Below, piece by piece: positions 5,696-25,861 of a stretch of 64,000 bases of DNA. Both the position numbers and the translations under genes were made by a program. Below the pieces are notes generated by a model. The model had not been told where the DNA came from. It did not search any database and saw only the letters and a program-made list of their open reading frames with translations. This DNA comes from Actinocorallia herbida (GTDB lineage: Bacteria; Actinomycetota; Actinomycetes; Streptosporangiales; Streptosporangiaceae). The stretch covers positions 4,154,001 through 4,218,000 of the forward strand of contig NZ_RJKE01000001.1 of the NCBI RefSeq assembly GCF_003751225.1, in the 5' to 3' direction. Numbering within the stretch: the stretch's first letter is position 1; each line of letters starts with the position of its first letter.

Positions 5696-6625
5696 ATGTT
5701 CGACCATTTCGCATACTCCGTTCTGGTTGCTCCGGTGCTGGTGCTCCTGGTGACCTGGCCCCTGGCGGACCGGCTGCGGCCCGCGTTCGCCGCGCGGGTG
5801 TTCGCCTGGTCGGCCGTCGCGGCCGCGGTGTGCACCACGACGAACGTCGTGGCGTTCGCGCTGAAGGCGCTGGCGGAACTGCCGGTCGTGGCGGGATGGG
5901 GCGGCTGGTCGGCCGAGGTCGTGAAGGCCGACACCGCGCACGTGCCCTGGGCGACCGGTCTCTCGGTGGTCTGGTTCGCGGTCAGCGTGGTCGCGGTCCT
6001 GCTCGGCTGGCGGCGCTACCGGGCGTCCCTGCGGGGCGCGTGGGAGGAGGTCGACCACCTGGACGCCGGGGAAGGCGAAGGGGACGAGGTCGTGGTCGTC
6101 CCTGACGACCGCGTCGACGCCTTCGCCCTGCCCGGACGGCCCGACGCCGAAGGCAGGGTCGTGGTCACCACCGGGTTGCGCGACGCGCTGAGCGAGCGCC
6201 AGTACGCGGCGGTCCTCGCGCACGAGCGCGCCCACCTCGACGGCGGGCACCACCAGCTCGTGTGGTTCACCCGTCTCGCCGCGTACGCCCAGCCGCTGCT
6301 GTGGCCGCTGGTCAAGAAGGTCGCCTACCTGGTCGAACGCGCGGCCGACGAGGAGGCCGCGCGGGTCACCGGCAGCCGGGCCGACGTCGCGCGGGCGATC
6401 GCGCACGCCGCCCTGGCGGTGAACGGGGCGGGGCCGAGCGCGCGGCCGCCGGGCCTGCTCGCGATGAGCTCCGGCGTCGTGCCGCGGCGGATGGCCGCGA
6501 TGACGGGCCCCGAGGTGCGCCGCCGCTGGCTGCTGGGCATGCCGGTGCTGCTCGCCGCGAGCACGATCGTATGGACGGGCGAGTGCGCCTACGACTTCTA
6601 CGAACTGCTCGCTTACCGCAGGTGA
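5696..6625 (+). CDS. M56/M48-type membrane zinc metallopeptidase
   Basis: Integral membrane protease related to the BlaR1/MecR1 peptidase domain and HtpX. Hydrophobic segments lie around residues 8-30, 37-60 and 80-103, and another near the C-terminus (LLGMPVLLAASTIVW). The zinc motif HERAH with a following GGHH is about residue 181, and ERAADEEAAR supplies the third ligand region. It lacks the penicillin-sensing C-terminal domain of BlaR1. I chose ATG 5696 (GAGAGG 5 nt upstream) over ATG 5693 and GTG 5657. In actinomycetes such peptidases usually pair with BlaI repressors and may cleave them; here the BlaI gene lies 0.7 kb downstream on the other strand. Confidence 0.85.
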   Translation: MFDHFAYSVLVAPVLVLLVTWPLADRLRPAFAARVFAWSAVAAAVCTTTNVVAFALKALAELPVVAGWGGWSAEVVKADTAHVPWATGLSVVWFAVSVVAVLLGWRRYRASLRGAWEEVDHLDAGEGEGDEVVVVPDDRVDAFALPGRPDAEGRVVVTTGLRDALSERQYAAVLAHERAHLDGGHHQLVWFTRLAAYAQPLLWPLVKKVAYLVERAADEEAARVTGSRADVARAIAHAALAVNGAGPSARPPGLLAMSSGVVPRRMAAMTGPEVRRRWLLGMPVLLAASTIVWTGECAYDFYELLAYRR

Positions 6626-6713
6626 CGCGGGCGACGCTCCCCAGCGGCTGACTCGTGTCTTGATACGTCCCGTCTTGACAGGAAGTGCGGGATCGATCCA
6701 AGCTTGATGCGAC

Positions 6714-6747: not shown

Positions 6748-6969
6748 ATGTCCACCAACCCCTTCGACGACGAGAACGGCACCTTCCTCGTCCTGGTCAA
6801 CGCCGAGGGCCAGCACTCCCTGTGGCCGGTGTTCGCCGACGTCCCGGCGGGCTGGACCACCGCACACGGCCCCGACTCCCGCCAGGCCTGCCTCGACCAC
6901 GTCGAACGGACCTGGACCGACATGCGCCCGGCGAGCCTCGCCGCCGCGATGGCGGACCGGGCGGACTGA
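6748..6969 (+). CDS. MbtH-like protein
   Basis: A 73-residue MbtH family protein, a small partner that activates NRPS adenylation domains. It carries the family signature: [14 protein letters not shown] and WTDMRP at the expected spacing. ATG with TGGAGG 8 nt upstream. The iron box directly before it implies a role with an iron-responsive siderophore NRPS. No NRPS, siderophore transporter or tailoring gene is in the window, so it is an orphan acting in trans on a cluster elsewhere. Confidence 0.95.
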
Positions 6970-19533: not shown

Positions 19534-20520
19534 ATGCCCCGTCCCGCGCGCATCCAGGACGTCGCCGCCGCGGCGGGCGTCTCGGTCTCGACCGTCTCCA
19601 ACGTGCTGAACCGGCCCGAGCGGGTGAACGCCGGGACCGTCGAGAAGGTCCTCGCGATCGTCGCGGAACTCGACTACGTCCCGCATCCGGGGGCGGCCGG
19701 GCTGCGCGCGGCGCACGCCCGCTCGATCGGCCTCGTCCTGCCCGACATCGCCAACTCCTTCTACGCGCGGATCGCGCGCGGCGCGTCCGACGCGGCCTTC
19801 CGGCAGGGCTACGCGCTGTCCCTCTGCCACAGCGGCGACGACCCCGAGCGGGAGGCCGAGTACTTCTCGATGCTGGTCGCGCAGCGGGCCAGCGGCGTCG
19901 TCGTGGCCCCGCTGGGCGCCGACCCGGGACGGCTGGAGCGGCTGCGGCGGCGGGGCGTGCCGCTGGTCCTGGCCGACCGGACCAGGCCGACGGCCGAGGG
20001 CTGCTCGGTCTCCGTGGACGACGTCGCGGGCGGCGCCCTGGCCGTCGCGCATCTGCTGGAGGGCGGGGCGCGCTCGGTCCTCGTGGTGAACGGCCCGCGC
20101 GAGATCCGGCAGTGCGCCGACCGCCACCAGGGGGCCAGACAGGCGGCCCGGAGGGTCCGCGGGGCGGTCCTGGAGCAGGTCGTGACGCCCCGGATGACCG
20201 TCGAGTGCGGGTACGAGGCCGGGCTGGCGATCGAGACGGCGCCCGACGCCGTGTTCTGCACGAACGACTTCCTGGCCGTCGGGGTGCTGCGCGCCTTGAC
20301 CGAGCGGGGCCTCGCCGTCCCCGGTGACGTCCGCCTCGTCGGCTACGGGGATCTGGACGCCGCGGGAGTGGCCGCCCTGACGACGGTCCGCCAGCCCGTC
20401 GAGGATCTCGGCGCCGCCGCGATCGAGCTGCTGCTCGACGAGGTCGAGGCGGGTCCCGATCACATCCACGAGGCCCGTGTCTTCGCACCCTCCCTCGTCG
20501 TCCGCGCCAGCGCCCCCTGA
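19534..20520 (+). CDS. LacI-family transcriptional regulator
   Basis: A 328-residue LacI regulator: HTH IQDVAAAAGVSVSTVSNVLNRPERVN at the start, then a sugar-binding type-1 periplasmic-like domain (IGLVLPDIANSFYARIARGA; VFCTNDFLAVGVL; VGYGDLD). ATG with GGGGGGAA upstream; TAGAAT near 19476 could be its -10. The two AAACGTT-centred sites in the 410-bp gap after it make the downstream isomerase gene its likely target. Confidence 0.9.
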   Translation: MPRPARIQDVAAAAGVSVSTVSNVLNRPERVNAGTVEKVLAIVAELDYVPHPGAAGLRAAHARSIGLVLPDIANSFYARIARGASDAAFRQGYALSLCHSGDDPEREAEYFSMLVAQRASGVVVAPLGADPGRLERLRRRGVPLVLADRTRPTAEGCSVSVDDVAGGALAVAHLLEGGARSVLVVNGPREIRQCADRHQGARQAARRVRGAVLEQVVTPRMTVECGYEAGLAIETAPDAVFCTNDFLAVGVLRALTERGLAVPGDVRLVGYGDLDAAGVAALTTVRQPVEDLGAAAIELLLDEVEAGPDHIHEARVFAPSLVVRASAP

Positions 20521-20562
20521 CGCGGCCCGCCGACCCTGTCCGGGGCTTCCTCCGGCCTCGGC

Positions 20563-20580
20563 AGAAAACGTTTTACATCA
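20563..20580. promoter_or_regulatory. LacI-type operator 1
   Basis: The core AAAACGTTTT (20565-20574) is a perfect palindrome. On the minus strand it reads TGTAAAACGTTTTCT, closely resembling the second site 255 bp downstream. CG-centred palindromes of this form are typical LacI/GalR sites. Confidence 0.75.
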
Positions 20581-20820
20581 GGTGGCGGACCGTCCGAGTA
20601 CCGCACTGAGCAGGGGAGGTGTCGCCACATCGGGACCACCGGGAGTCTTGGATCATGGAACATCGGGTCGGCACCTTCACCCAAGGTCAGGTGACGGCTT
20701 GCGCCCCGCCCTTCCCGAGCTCCGAGAACATCCCGTGAAATCGATGAATCCGCAGCTCCAATGCCCTTCCCTCGGTCCATCGGCCTTCTGGAGAACGCAG
20801 ACCCCGCCCCGTCTCCGGCT

Positions 20821-20837
20821 TGTAAAAACGTTCTACA
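20821..20837. promoter_or_regulatory. LacI-type operator 2
   Basis: TGTAAAAACGTTCTACA, 95 nt before the isomerase start, shares the TGTAAAA and ACGTT parts of operator 1. The rest of the 20521-20931 gap shows no convincing gene. Two sites 255 bp apart could allow looping by a tetrameric regulator. Confidence 0.7.
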
Positions 20838-20931
20838 CCGCCTATCGTCCCTCGAACCGGAGCTCGGTGTCCGAAAAGTCGGTTCCCCTGCCCCGGTGCC
20901 CGCCCGCCCCGCACGAAAGGGACCCGTCTCG

Positions 20932-22377
20932 ATGACCTCCCCCGCCCGTACCCCGGTCCTCGACCTCCTCGCCCCGGTCACCCGCCGCAAGACCCGCATC
21001 GGGCTCGTCGCGGGCGGCCTCGGCACCTACTGGCCGCAGTTCCCCGGCCTGCTCCCGCAGCTCCAGGAGAGCGCCCGGTACGTCGCCGAGAGGTTCCAGG
21101 AGATGGACGCCGAGGTGACCGACGTCGGGTTCATCTCCGACGCGAAGGAGGGCGCGGCGGCGGCCGAGCAGCTCCGCAAGGCGGACTGCGACCTCATCGT
21201 GCTCTTCCTGACGACCTACCTGACCTCGTCGATGGTGCTGCCGATCGCCCAGCGCGCGAACACCCCGGTGCTCGTCATCGACCTCCAGCCGACCGAGAAG
21301 ATGGACCACACCGCGTTCGACACTGGTGCGTGGCTCGCCTACTGCGGCCAGTGCCCGGTGCCCGAGGTCGGCAACGTGTTCCGCCGCGCGGGCGTCCCGT
21401 TCCGCTCGGTCTCCGGCTGGCTGAAGCAGGACTCGGCCTGGGCGCGGATCGGCCAGTGGATCCGGGCCGCGCACGTCCGCGCGGCCCTCCGGCACGCCCG
21501 CCACGGCCTCATGGGCCACCTGTACCCGGGCATGCTCGACGTCTCCACCGACCTGACCCTGCTGCCCGCCACGTTCGGCTCGCACGTCGAAGTGCTGGAG
21601 TTCGACGACCTGCGGCACCGCGTCGAGCAGGTGACCGAGGCCGAGACCCGCGCCCGGATGGACCTCGCCCGCCAGATCTTCGCCCTCGACGACACGGTCG
21701 TGGAGGAGGACTTCGCCTGGGGCGCGACGGTCTCGGTCGCGCTGGACCGGCTGGTCGAGGACTTCGAGATCGACACCCTCGCCTACTACCACCGCGGCCT
21801 CGACGGCGAGCAGCACGAGCGGCTCGGCGCCGGCATGATCCTCGGCGCGTCCCTGCTGACCGCGCGCGGCGTCCCGGCGACCGGCGAGTACGAGCTGCGG
21901 ACGACGGTCGCCCAGCTCGCCTCGCAGGCCGTGGGCGCGGGCGGCTCGTTCACCGAGATCCAGGCGCTGAACTTCGCCGACAACGTGGTCGAGATGGGCC
22001 ACGACGGCCCCGCCCACCTCGCCGTCAGCGCCCGCGACCCGCTGCTGCGCGGCCTCGGCGTCTACCACGGCAAGCGCGGCTGGGGCGTCAGCGTCGAGTT
22101 CGACGTCCAGCACGGCCCCGTCACCGTGCTCGGTCTCGGCCAGGACGCCGACGGCACCCTGTCCTTCATCGCCTCAGAGGGCACCGTCGTCCCCGGCCCC
22201 CTCCTGGAGATCGGCAACACCACGAGCCGCGTCGACTTCGGCCGCGACCCCGGCGAGTGGGTCGACGCCTGGTCCGCCACCGGCGTGGGCCACCACTGGT
22301 CCCTGTCCATCGGCCACCGCGCCGCCGACTACCGCGCCGCCGCCGACCTCCTCGGCATCCCCTACCGCGAGGTCTGA
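20932..22377 (+). CDS. L-arabinose/L-fucose isomerase-family protein
   Basis: A 481-residue protein of the AraA/FucI-like fold (COG2160 type), expected to interconvert an aldose and a ketose using Mn2+. Family features are RIGLVAGGLGTYWPQFPGLL at the N-terminus, LFLTTYLTSSMVLPIAQRANTPVLVIDLQPT, GHLYPGMLDVSTD, and a C-terminal WGVSVEFDVQHGPVTVLGLGQ. ATG with GAAAGG 11 nt upstream. The usual partners (araB, araD, ABC transporter) are absent, so the substrate is uncertain. Predicted to be controlled by the LacI protein encoded upstream. Confidence 0.75.
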   Translation: MTSPARTPVLDLLAPVTRRKTRIGLVAGGLGTYWPQFPGLLPQLQESARYVAERFQEMDAEVTDVGFISDAKEGAAAAEQLRKADCDLIVLFLTTYLTSSMVLPIAQRANTPVLVIDLQPTEKMDHTAFDTGAWLAYCGQCPVPEVGNVFRRAGVPFRSVSGWLKQDSAWARIGQWIRAAHVRAALRHARHGLMGHLYPGMLDVSTDLTLLPATFGSHVEVLEFDDLRHRVEQVTEAETRARMDLARQIFALDDTVVEEDFAWGATVSVALDRLVEDFEIDTLAYYHRGLDGEQHERLGAGMILGASLLTARGVPATGEYELRTTVAQLASQAVGAGGSFTEIQALNFADNVVEMGHDGPAHLAVSARDPLLRGLGVYHGKRGWGVSVEFDVQHGPVTVLGLGQDADGTLSFIASEGTVVPGPLLEIGNTTSRVDFGRDPGEWVDAWSATGVGHHWSLSIGHRAADYRAAADLLGIPYREV

Positions 22378-22426
22378 CCCGGGAAGATCCACCGAATTCT
22401 CGAAGATCGTTCTAAGATGCGTCGCC

Positions 22427-23257
22427 ATGTCCGACGCATCACCTCCCGCCCGTCGCCGGTCCCGCCTCGCCGCCCTTGCCGCCCTCGTGGCCGGCGCGTG
22501 CCCGTTCGGGACCGGCGCCGTCCTGCTCACGCTGGAACCGACCCGAGAGCCGACCGCCGCGGAACTCGCCGGTGCCAAGGAGCGGGAGCGACACGAGCGC
22601 CGGCGGTTGTGGACCGCCGACGAACTGTTTCCTCCCGAGGTCTCCTATGGGGGTGGCGCGCAGGGCGGGGGTGCGCAGACGGCGCGTCGCGTCGGGGTCG
22701 CGCCGGAGGCGGACTGCAAGGAAGGGCTCGATGGCGGAGCCCTCAAAGCCGTCGCGGGGCGGGGCTGCGAGACGGTTCTGCGGGCCGGCTATGTCGACGC
22801 GTCGGGCACCGAGGTGACGACCGTCGGCGTCCTGCCCCTGCGCGACGCCGACGCGGCGCGGGAGGCGGCCGACGCGCTGGACGGGAAGGGCGGCGTGCGC
22901 GCCGCGGCCTTCCCGAGGACGGCGGCGGCGGTCACCGACGCGGCCCGCCACCCGAAGGGCGGCTACACCACGACGGTCGGCCATGGCCCCATCGACCCGG
23001 CCGCCGCCCTGGCCGTCGCGCCGGACCAGGCACTGCCCGAACCGTCGGCGTCCGGCGGGACGGCGACCTTCGGCACCCCGCCCGTCCCGATCACCGCGGT
23101 CCGCCACGCCCGGGCCGCGCTCCTGCCACCGGCCGCCCTGCTCGGCCGGGGCGCGGGCGTCCTCGTCGCCGCCTTCCTCCTCCGCAGGCGCGCCTCCCGC
23201 CCGTCGCCGCCGGCTCCGGTGGCGGACGCGGTCCCGGCCGACGGAGCGGCCGCGTGA
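22427..23257 (+). CDS. Chimeric membrane protein, fused remnant of the 24033-25861 gene pair
   Basis: A 276-residue protein with two origins. Residues 1-172 are homologous to the start of the protein encoded at 24033 (MSDASPPARRRSR; LTLEPTREPTAAELA; GRGCETVLRAGYVDASGTEVTTVGVLPLRDAD). Residues 173-276 are homologous to the end of the subtilase-like protein at 24755 (ARHPKGGY; IDPAAAL; C-terminal membrane helix and basic tail). The whole protease fold is missing. The join is near 22931-22948, where the parents share a short GCG/CGCCA similarity. The reading frame is intact, with an N-terminal anchor near residues 15-37 and a C-terminal helix near 228-250. TAAGAT 8 nt before the ATG suggests a leaderless transcript, as in the sister copy. 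Function unknown. Confidence 0.75.
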   Translation: MSDASPPARRRSRLAALAALVAGACPFGTGAVLLTLEPTREPTAAELAGAKERERHERRRLWTADELFPPEVSYGGGAQGGGAQTARRVGVAPEADCKEGLDGGALKAVAGRGCETVLRAGYVDASGTEVTTVGVLPLRDADAAREAADALDGKGGVRAAAFPRTAAAVTDAARHPKGGYTTTVGHGPIDPAAALAVAPDQALPEPSASGGTATFGTPPVPITAVRHARAALLPPAALLGRGAGVLVAAFLLRRRASRPSPPAPVADAVPADGAAA

Positions 23258-23324: not shown

Positions 23325-23948
23325 ATGGGGGAGGACGCGGTTTTCGATGTGCGGGGACCGTGGGCGCCGCTGACGCCGGGTGAGGCCGCCGAGCTGCTGC
23401 GCGGCGCGGGCTTCCCGTGGTGGATCGCGGGCGGTCACGCGATCGAGCTGGCGGTCGGGGAGGCGTTCCGCGCGCACGCGGACCTCGACGTGCTGGTGCT
23501 GCACCGGGACCACGCGGAGCTGCGGCGTCGGCTCGGCGGGTGGGAGGCCGGGCTCGCCGATCCGCCCGGAACGCTGCGGGCCTGGCCGGAGGGCGGACAG
23601 GTGCCGGAGGGTGTGCACGACGTGTGGTGCCGCCGTGCGCCGGGCGAGCCCTGGGCCGTGCAGTTCATGCTCGACGGGGCCGATGGCGCCGACTGGGTGT
23701 CCCGGCGTGATCCCCGGATCAGGATGCCGCTGGCCCACCTCGGGCGGGTCACCGGGGACGGCATCCCTTACCTGCGGCCCGAGGTGCAGCTCTACTACAA
23801 GGCGAAGGCCGTCAGGGAGAAGGACGCGCTCGACTTCGCCCGGGTCTCGCCCCTGCTCGACGCCGAGGCCCGCACCTGGCTTTCCGCCGCCCTCGCCCTC
23901 TCCTCACCGGGCCACCCGTGGCGCGACGGCCTTTCGCGGTGCACCTGA
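23325..23948 (+). CDS. Nucleotidyltransferase-fold protein, AadB-like
   Basis: A 207-residue protein resembling aminoglycoside 2''-nucleotidyltransferase and related domains: WWIAGGHAIELAVGEAF followed by HADLDVLVL carries the GG and D-x-D metal-binding pair at residues 34-58. A later LYYKAKAVREKDALDF matches the helix that closes such small transferases (KAKD-x-x-DF). It may modify an aminoglycoside-like compound or be a generic nucleotidyltransferase. ATG chosen for GGAG upstream. It sits between the two copies of the membrane/subtilase unit. Confidence 0.65.
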   Translation: MGEDAVFDVRGPWAPLTPGEAAELLRGAGFPWWIAGGHAIELAVGEAFRAHADLDVLVLHRDHAELRRRLGGWEAGLADPPGTLRAWPEGGQVPEGVHDVWCRRAPGEPWAVQFMLDGADGADWVSRRDPRIRMPLAHLGRVTGDGIPYLRPEVQLYYKAKAVREKDALDFARVSPLLDAEARTWLSAALALSSPGHPWRDGLSRCT

Positions 23949-24032
23949 CCCGAAGAGTCACGGTCGGTGCAGTATCGGGAACAGGCCGGCCGTCTAGATC
24001 ATTCGGCGGGTTCGCGGCTAGGATTCCGCCCC

Positions 24033-24761
24033 ATGTCCGACGCCCCACCCCCCGCGCGTCGCAGGTCCCGTCACGTCCCGGCCGCGGCGCTCGCGCTCGT
24101 CGGCCTGGCCGCGCTGGGGACCGGCGGCGTCCTGCTCACCGGGGAACTGACCCGCGAGCCCACCCGCGCCGAGCTGGCCGCGGCCGCCGAGCGCGAAACC
24201 CACGAGCGCTGGCGGCTGCGCCCCGTCGGCGAGGTCTTCCCGGCCGAAGTGCCCTACGGCGACGCGGCGGACGGGTCGGTGAAGCCCATCGCACGGCGCG
24301 TCGGCATCGCGTCCGCCGCGTCGTGCGCGGAGGCCCTCGACACCGACGCCGCGCGGGCCCTCGCCGCGCACGGCTGCCGGACGGTATTGCGCGCCACCTA
24401 CGTCGATGCCACGGGCACCCAGGTCACCACCGTCGGCCTCGTGCCGCTGCGCGACGCCGACGCAGGGCGGACGGCGGTCCGGGAGATGTCCGGCCGCGAA
24501 CGCGAGGGCCTGCGCGCCGTCGGCTTCCCCGAGACCGCGAGCGCGCCCTTCACCGACGCGACGCGCCAGGCGTTCGTCGCCGGAGGCACCGGCAGGTACC
24601 TGCTGCTCCAGACCAGCGGATGGCTGGACGACCGCCCCGCGCTCCCGCCGGAGGCGGTGGTCTCCCGGTTCGGGCACGGGAGCGCCGTGCTGGCCGCCCT
24701 GTCGGCGTTCCTCGGCGACCCCGCCGCGTCGGTGTGCGAAGCGGAGCGCGTCGCATGCTGA
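24033..24761 (+). CDS. Membrane-anchored extracytoplasmic protein, unknown family
   Basis: A 242-residue protein with a basic N-terminus (ARRRSRH), one hydrophobic anchor at about residues 15-37, and an outer domain. Two cysteines (SCAEAL and HGCRTVLRATYV), both kept in the chimeric copy at 22427, could form a disulfide. I do not recognise a named family; similar proteins adjoin subtilase genes in other actinomycetes by my recollection. TAGGAT lies 8 nt before the ATG and there is no ribosome binding site, suggesting leaderless expression. Its stop overlaps the next gene's start by 7 nt, so the two are translationally coupled. Confidence 0.7.
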   Translation: MSDAPPPARRRSRHVPAAALALVGLAALGTGGVLLTGELTREPTRAELAAAAERETHERWRLRPVGEVFPAEVPYGDAADGSVKPIARRVGIASAASCAEALDTDAARALAAHGCRTVLRATYVDATGTQVTTVGLVPLRDADAGRTAVREMSGREREGLRAVGFPETASAPFTDATRQAFVAGGTGRYLLLQTSGWLDDRPALPPEAVVSRFGHGSAVLAALSAFLGDPAASVCEAERVAC

Positions 24762-25861
24762 TCAGTCTCGCGGCCTCCGTCGCCGCTCTGACGCTCCTGG
24801 CCCCCGCGCCCGTCCTGGCCGCCGCCCCGGTCGACGACGACCTGCGCGCGTCCTTTGAGAAGGCTCGGCGATCCTCTCGGGGAAAGGGCGTCACCGTCGC
24901 CGTCCTGGGGTCCGGGGTGGCCCGCGACCTGCCCGCGCTCGGGGACCGCGTGCTGCCAGGCAAGAGCTTCGTGAAGCCCCATGGACGCCCGGTGCACGGC
25001 ACCCTCATGGCCTCGATGATCCACTCGCTGGCCCCCGAGGCGAAGATCCTGCCCGTCCAGATCACGTGTGACGGCGGTGCGCCTTTGGACGTGACCCACT
25101 GCGGCGGCGTCGGAACCCCTTCGGACGGGCTCCGGTGGGCCGCGGAGAAAGGCGCGGACGTGATCGTGGTGAGCCGCGCATGGAGAGGGATCGACTCCGG
25201 CCGCGAGATCTCCTACGCGCTGTCGAAGGGCGCGGTGGTCGTCGCCCCCAACGTGCGGCTGCGGCCGAGCGGCGGGAGCCTGCCGGGACGCCGGGAGCCC
25301 GTGGTCCCCGCACGAGATCCCGGCGTCGTCGGGGTCGCCGTCGTGGACGCGCAGGGCAGGCCGGACAGGGACTCGGCGCTGACCAGTGCCTCGCTCGTCG
25401 CCGCCCCCGGCCACCGGCGGGCGGCCACCGGCCCGGACGGACGGACCTGGACGTTCTGGGGTGAAGGCCCCGCGGTCTCCCTCGTCGCCGCGGCAGCCGC
25501 GCTGGTCAGGTCCGAGCACCCCGATGCCGGCCCCGCCGAGGTCGCCGCCGCGCTCGCCGCGTCCGCCCGCCACCCGAAGGGCGGCTACGACCCCTCGGTG
25601 GGATTCGGCCTGATCGACCCCGCCGCCGCACTCCGCGCGGTCCCGGAAAGGACATCGACCGAGACGGAGGCCGGACTGGATCCCGCCTCCTTCCCCGCAG
25701 GGGAGCCGCCCGTCATCGCCGCGGTCGGGCACCGGCCCGTCGCCTTCGCCGTGCCCGCCGGGGCCCTCGGCGGCGGACTCGTCCTGCTCGGCGCGGCCGC
25801 CGTCCTCGGCCGCCGTGGACGGACGCGCCCGGAGGCCCCCGCCGTGGAGCCCGCGCCCTGA
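24755..25861 (+). CDS. Subtilase-like (S8) membrane protein lacking catalytic residues
   Basis: A 368-residue secreted protein with a signal peptide (about 1-23), a subtilase-like fold and a C-terminal membrane helix with basic tail, the layout of type VII secretion-associated mycosins. The usual catalytic Asp motif (VAVIDSGV) reads VAVLGSGV, Asp to Gly at residue 52. The His in VHGTLMASMI (residue 81) is kept. The GTSFAAP serine motif is replaced by GEGPAVS near residue 236. With Asp and Ser lost it is probably an inactive pseudoprotease. The order and tail (HPDAGPAEVAAALAASARH; GFGLIDPAAAL) confirm the family. No WXG100 or Ecc gene is near. Coupled to the preceding gene. Confidence 0.8.
   Translation: MLISLAASVAALTLLAPAPVLAAAPVDDDLRASFEKARRSSRGKGVTVAVLGSGVARDLPALGDRVLPGKSFVKPHGRPVHGTLMASMIHSLAPEAKILPVQITCDGGAPLDVTHCGGVGTPSDGLRWAAEKGADVIVVSRAWRGIDSGREISYALSKGAVVVAPNVRLRPSGGSLPGRREPVVPARDPGVVGVAVVDAQGRPDRDSALTSASLVAAPGHRRAATGPDGRTWTFWGEGPAVSLVAAAAALVRSEHPDAGPAEVAAALAASARHPKGGYDPSVGFGLIDPAAALRAVPERTSTETEAGLDPASFPAGEPPVIAAVGHRPVAFAVPAGALGGGLVLLGAAAVLGRRGRTRPEAPAVEPAP

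Follow-up and report, generated by a model that had tools for sequence, protein, structure and literature searches.

The DNA analyzed here (the window) is a stretch of 64,000 nucleotides from the genome of Actinocorallia herbida that contains three related open reading frames on its forward strand (Table 1). Two of them, which we call A and B, form a tight pair in which the stop codon of A overlaps the start codon of B. The third, called F, precedes this pair and is separated from it by a nucleotidyltransferase-like gene. It joins the beginning of an A-type protein to the end of a B-type protein, with the middle of the pair missing.

Table 1. Features of the locus, in positions of the window.
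Feature	Positions	Strand	Properties or basis
TAAGAT, hexamer resembling a -10 box, 8 bases ahead of the F start codon (ATG), arranged as for leaderless messages	22413..22418	+	TANNNT motif
F, fused ORF, 276 aa	22427..23257	+	Open frame; alignments to A and B
Head of F, residues 1-172, A-type origin	22427..22942	+	Membrane helix and beginning of the ectodomain, with Cys97 and Cys114 retained
Tail of F, residues 173-276, B-type origin	22943..23254	+	Final part of the subtilase domain, then a linker and a weak membrane helix at the C-terminus
Nucleotidyltransferase-like gene between F and the surviving A-B pair	23325..23948	+	PF10706, 34.5 bits; outside the pair
TAGGAT, hexamer resembling a -10 box, 8 bases ahead of the A start codon (ATG)	24019..24024	+	TANNNT motif
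A, membrane-anchored ectodomain protein, 242 aa, four invariant Cys	24033..24761	+	Family remotely like PknH_C
B, degenerate mycosin of 368 aa with a membrane helix at its C-terminus and other residues in place of the catalytic Asp and Ser	24755..25861	+	TIGR03921, residue columns

The product of A was predicted by AlphaFold2 (61 sequences, pLDDT 91.9) to have a membrane helix at residues 14-40 and an ectodomain of alpha/beta type, whose strands lie at residues 86-97, 117-124, 130-138, 178-186, and 189-197 and which ends in helices. The four cysteines are invariant across 61 A-type proteins. At E-values up to 1, the PknH_C family (PF14032) matches 24 of these 61 proteins (best 4.6e-07), and DUF7373 also matches 24 of them (best 0.00019), whereas profile searches with the A of the window matched nothing in Pfam or NCBIfam, PknH_C included. 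A fold search of the PDB with A gave nothing under E 0.001; the highest probability among the 50 fold matches shown belongs to the PknH ectodomain 4esq, though without significance (0.41, E 0.07, TM 0.28/0.34), and a profile search of the PDB returned no match. Unlike PknH, A is far too short for an additional kinase domain. We thus describe A as a probable membrane-anchored ectodomain protein that is remotely like PknH_C, a link that is suggestive only. The PF14032 profile had no match in the A. herbida genome, with control genomes likewise giving none, and a single-sequence scan of a collection of genome contigs with A found no relative. Elsewhere in the same genome (around 1.56 Mb of contig C1), two adjoining genes are weakly A-like with 25.8 bits each (ORFs starting at 6925 and 6945 of locus L077; also L004), and 17 kb around them hold no B-type match.

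The earlier note on this DNA had called B subtilase-like, which holds insofar as B resembles the mycosins (MycP) of type VII secretion. Its match to the mycosin model TIGR03921 spans positions 2-350 out of 353, Peptidase_S8 scores 32 bits, and, like mycosins, B has a hydrophobic N-terminal end and a membrane helix near its C-terminus (hydropathy 1.95 over 19 residues). However, the score against TIGR03921 (160 bits) stays below the curated cut-off of 278.75, and catalytic Asp and Ser are absent. In place of the Asp-His-Ser triad, B has G-H-G with R or S for the oxyanion Asn, i.e., G-H-R-G at the four catalytic columns in one alignment and G-H-S-G in another, alignment at lost catalytic sites being less certain. 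B is hence not a normal protease, and it belongs to a clade that already lacks the catalytic residues. The best mycosin of this genome lies elsewhere (C1:8633345, 285.6 bits). EccC, the one core secretion gene that we searched for, has no match in the window, and its best match in the genome (C1:8478003, 346 bits) is below the cut-off of 509.

Pairs of this kind are widespread in the family. With F as query, matches were found in at least 197 of 250 family genomes (E up to 0.001) and in at least 263 of 345 genomes (E up to 1e-6); the latter search was aimed at the order, and every genome among the matches listed belongs to the same family. In 20 fetched loci, a full B lies behind every A-type ORF except the last one of locus L045, after which the fetched stretch soon ends, and 13 of the 20 carry tandem arrays of two or three A-B pairs. 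A larger sample of 79 named loci from species genomes, drawn from the best 80 of 161 relatives, contains 134 near-complete A genes (leaving out one incomplete gene from locus L109, described below), and B starts 400-1200 bases downstream of 131 of them. The remaining three are the A genes of L126 and L136, with no B in the fetched stretch, and the first A of L143, which is followed by a B split into two pieces. In one metagenome-assembled genome (L156:3762-5744), a single ORF encodes a complete A joined to a B that is nearly complete and has all four catalytic residues, and this natural fusion suggests that the A and B proteins work together or side by side. A plasmid search found none.

Loss of the catalytic residues is not confined to the B of the window. 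Among 133 B proteins (131 from relatives, the B of the window, and the standard mycosin of the same genome), the four catalytic columns (Asp, His, Asn, and Ser) are intact in 107 and not in the other 26. In the partly overlapping set of 37 B proteins from the 20 fetched loci, one or more of these residues are missing in 15. On a tree of 133 A rows (FastTree, with several long branches flagged), the 26 A genes whose B is degenerate require only 4 changes, against a mean of 24 in shuffles. Fifteen of them, including the A of the window, group with F (support 88), while the other 11 fall inside a second group of pairs together with 19 intact ones; 10 of these 11 come from Microbispora, Sphaerimonospora, or Microtetraspora. 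The family consists of membrane-anchored, perhaps sensor-like proteins that are nearly always paired with mycosin-like subtilases, and whole branches without the catalytic residues keep the pair.

Both halves of F are clearly homologous to the surviving pair, as the earlier note had proposed together with the pairwise alignments that bear it out. The head scores 460 against A (300 shuffles: mean 42, best 86) with 104 of 172 aligned residues identical, and F from residue 166 onward scores 197 against the end of B (300 shuffles: mean 49, best 76), with 48 of 96 aligned residues of the tail identical. The frame is open across all 276 codons. Absent from F are residues 177-242 of A (ca. 27% of the protein) and residues 1-269 of B (ca. 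73%), close to the last third and first two thirds estimated earlier, and, counted from the alignments, the missing middle corresponds to 1001 bases of the present A-B pair. Of the mycosin model, the tail of F keeps positions 259-347 only (21.2 bits).

A trivial origin of F from an assembly error that joined reads of A and B is not credible, since F shares only 60% and 50% protein identity with A and B, respectively, and the genome is a single contig of 9.8 Mb. The tail of F is likewise no copy of the present tail of B, for it keeps residues that are changed in B. Instead, the head of F is sister to A (support 100/99 in a tree of 38 rows and 99 in that of 133 rows), and its tail is sister to the tail of B (support 96, 133 rows). 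Divergence by the NG86 method is similar for the two halves (head against A: dS 0.65, dN 0.32; tail against B: dS 0.83, dN 0.44), which makes them of similar age. Since the trees and the dS values agree, both halves descend from one extra copy of the pair, and F looks like a real, open-frame remnant of that copy. The scenario of tandem duplication followed by internal deletion offered in the earlier note fits these trees and the tandem pairs of relatives, except that the duplication is old: a dS of 0.65-0.83 rejects a recent event. Because A and B are thus diverged paralogues of F whose own parents are lost, the short GCG/CGCCA stretch shared at the join, which had been read as the breakpoint, is uninformative on its position.

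The setting of F also differs within the genus. In one congener (G001), the genes preceding F, which we take to be a regulator and an isomerase, are present with 80% and 90% identical DNA and are followed by other genes, by eye presumably a peptide transporter. Compared with positions 19534-22377 of the window, the corresponding stretch of this congener (L073:9447-16187) shares these two genes and then carries different ones, so that the block from F to B sits at a break in gene order. In two of six relatives inspected, the array lies near what we take to be a MoeZ-like gene, and stretches of 14-18 kb around this gene in three genomes of the genus contain no A- or B-type sequence. On this evidence, the block from F to B is peculiar to this genome within the genus sample of three. 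An undeleted form of the copy that gave rise to F is absent from the A. herbida genome, and the two congeners yielded one weak match (G001, 26.3 bits) and none (G002). Neither an undeleted second pair of this lineage nor, among the matches listed, a second genome with F was found, which leaves the deletion undated.

A search for the same fused form in relatives, as the earlier note had suggested, turned up no second intact case among the matches listed from 345 family genomes. The best foreign score with F among these matches is 93.6 bits, while F against itself reaches 566 and the A of the window 168. As a full orthologue of F would rank at the top, the weak end of the matches matters little. 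Fourteen of the matches listed run past residue 205 of F (8 stop-free, 6 with internal stops), and all of them proved upon opening to be complete ordinary A genes with separate B genes. One broken counterpart was found in Microbispora rosea ATCC 12950 (L109, ca. 5947-6640), where, just as in F, the middle is gone and a B-type tail stands behind an A-type head (171 bits over profile positions 5-169). However, its join lies elsewhere (by eye), and its tail (positions 338-381, 15.5 bits, E 0.0003) is in another frame and reaches a stop before the helix (by eye). The different join, together with a head that by eye resembles another branch of the clade, probably means that this remnant arose independently of F.

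The earlier note had also pointed out that the arrangement of -10 hexamer and ATG is preserved in F, and the two hexamers indeed stand at the same distance from the starts of F and A (Table 1). The motif is typical of the family. Among A genes whose B is degenerate, 20 of 25 have a TANNNT hexamer 5-10 bases ahead of a candidate start codon (11/11 in the second group, 9/14 in the group of the window), as do 66 of 103 A genes whose B is intact, compared with 323 of the 27,389 start triplets that these loci contain. More than one candidate start was allowed per gene (44 and 294 in all), for which chance alone would predict about 0.5 and 3.5 genes, respectively. Scans for sigma-70 promoters and terminators found none. 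Judged by its conserved motif, F is probably transcribed as a leaderless message.

What such a message would encode is less reassuring. F has no Pfam match in profile searches and lacks a subtilase domain, in line with the earlier proposal of a new two-helix membrane protein without the protease fold, but a stable protein is doubtful because the fold is incomplete and the second helix weak. Of the predicted fold of A, F is without the final helix, the two strands at 178-186 and 189-197, and two of the invariant cysteines (Cys235 and Cys242). An AlphaFold2 model of F (21 sequences covering the heads only, the tail being without alignment) reached a pLDDT of 70 and a pTM of 0.52, with ca. 80-94 in the kept ectodomain, below 50 for residues 174-240, and ca. 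67-76 in the second helix. This helix has a mean hydropathy of 1.59 over 19 residues and contains PP and Arg, compared with 1.95 in B and 2.51-2.53 in three relatives. F has also evolved faster than A, with branch lengths of 0.67 vs. 0.19 in the 38-row tree and 0.63 vs. 0.29 in the 133-row tree, i.e., 2.2 to 3.5 times as long. If dS is taken as equal on both branches, omega on the branch of F is estimated at ca. 0.68-0.77.

Other features speak for some constraint. Of 25 columns with 90% or more conservation across 60 other sequences at which A matches the consensus, F has changed only 2, compared with 25 of all 84 columns with the consensus in A (P 0.003), and with all columns counted it changed 4 of 27 conserved ones vs. 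69 of 170 (P 0.002). An FG.PP..I.AVRH-like motif before the second helix is kept in F and altered in B. These signs of conservation may, however, predate the deletion. Gap lengths were discarded as evidence for selection, as the protein alignment shows whole codons only; in the DNA alignment of F with the pair, local gaps are not multiples of three.

One way to read these features is that F is a maintained new protein, a part of the A ectodomain that is membrane-held at both ends and has taken over a function of the pair independent of the dead protease domain, e.g., as competitor or partner of A and B. Conserved residues that are preferentially kept, the promoter-like motif, and a membrane-near tail motif better preserved than in B would all be expected then, and the single A+B ORF of L156 suggests that both proteins may act side by side. 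We consider a maintained F possible though on the unlikely side, given the two missing strands, the missing last helix and two invariant cysteines, the weak second helix, the fast branch, and the failure to find F in any second genome among the matches listed. The opposite view, that F is a silent and recent pseudogene whose frame is open by chance and whose conservation is older than the deletion, would agree with this fast branch and with the broken case in M. rosea. Nor is it rare for an unselected frame to stay open for a short while: simulations with substitutions only left it open in 71% of cases after 5% of sites had been redrawn, in 15% after 30%, and in 6% after 50%. Yet third-position GC content is still high in F (GC3 0.895; head 0.866, tail 0.942) next to that of B (0.897) and A (0.938), and the promoter-like motif is intact, so that we regard a silent F as unlikely.

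The verdict on F is therefore mixed, with motif and conserved columns on one side and the fast branch, incomplete fold, and weak helix on the other. Our preferred reading, to which we assign a probability of roughly 0.6, is that F is what remains of an additional A-B pair, a remnant that is probably transcribed and weakly constrained and that would have no firm function. A whole A-B pair would have been duplicated in this lineage, or the pair of a near relative would have come in, at a time when the B clade had already lost its catalytic residues. One copy would then have lost ca. 1 kb from around residue 176 of its A to around residue 270 of its B, a length that kept the reading frame. The fused gene would have retained the promoter of its A, from which it is probably still transcribed into a leaderless message, and the predicted product would be a membrane protein that begins with a helix and continues through an incomplete ectodomain and a disordered linker to a weak helix at its C-terminus. 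Most likely, F has no more than a weak residual role and is being lost.

As such a remnant, F is a clear small case of a tandem gene pair that collapsed into a single in-frame gene, with a broken counterpart in another genus. A bolder version would hold that, in an old lineage of dead mycosins paired with membrane-anchored, sensor-like proteins, the dead protease domain has become dispensable and the pair can collapse to a doubly anchored membrane protein that works and is made from the leaderless promoter of the pair, making F the living example of this collapse and the remnant in M. rosea a failed one. We deem this generalization distinctly doubtful.

The wider interest may lie in the dead mycosins themselves. 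Mycosins are reported to stabilize ESX complexes, and secretion requires MycP but not its protease activity, as described for MycP1 (PMC5082899, PMC5156307). They are described in another report as tail-anchored, with paired arginines absent in almost all of 100 examined proteins (PMC10924467). If dead mycosins are scaffolds, this would fit the reported need of mycobacteria for MycP in complex stability apart from proteolysis (PMC5082899), and the scaffold idea would become testable outside mycobacteria. Bacterial subtilase-like pseudoproteases are represented by CspC and CspA of Clostridioides difficile, which are reported to sense signals instead of cutting (PMC6636752, PMC12880746). Their likeness to B is one of description, and they differ in being called soluble, whereas B has a membrane helix and an A partner. 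A literature search with a few wordings, covering few subscription papers, found nothing that joins mycosins with pseudoproteases or mycosins with PknH and an extracellular domain.

The triad-less mycosin-like subtilases of several loci (the B of the window, L091, L133, L150, and L118) appear as an old group, each with an A-type partner. In several arrays, the triad-less pair comes last after pairs that keep the triad, and the degenerate pair is the last of the array in L078, L091, L133, L145, L150, and L153. Locus L045 (8728-12669) displays a further arrangement with three consecutive degenerate B-type genes behind one A-type gene.
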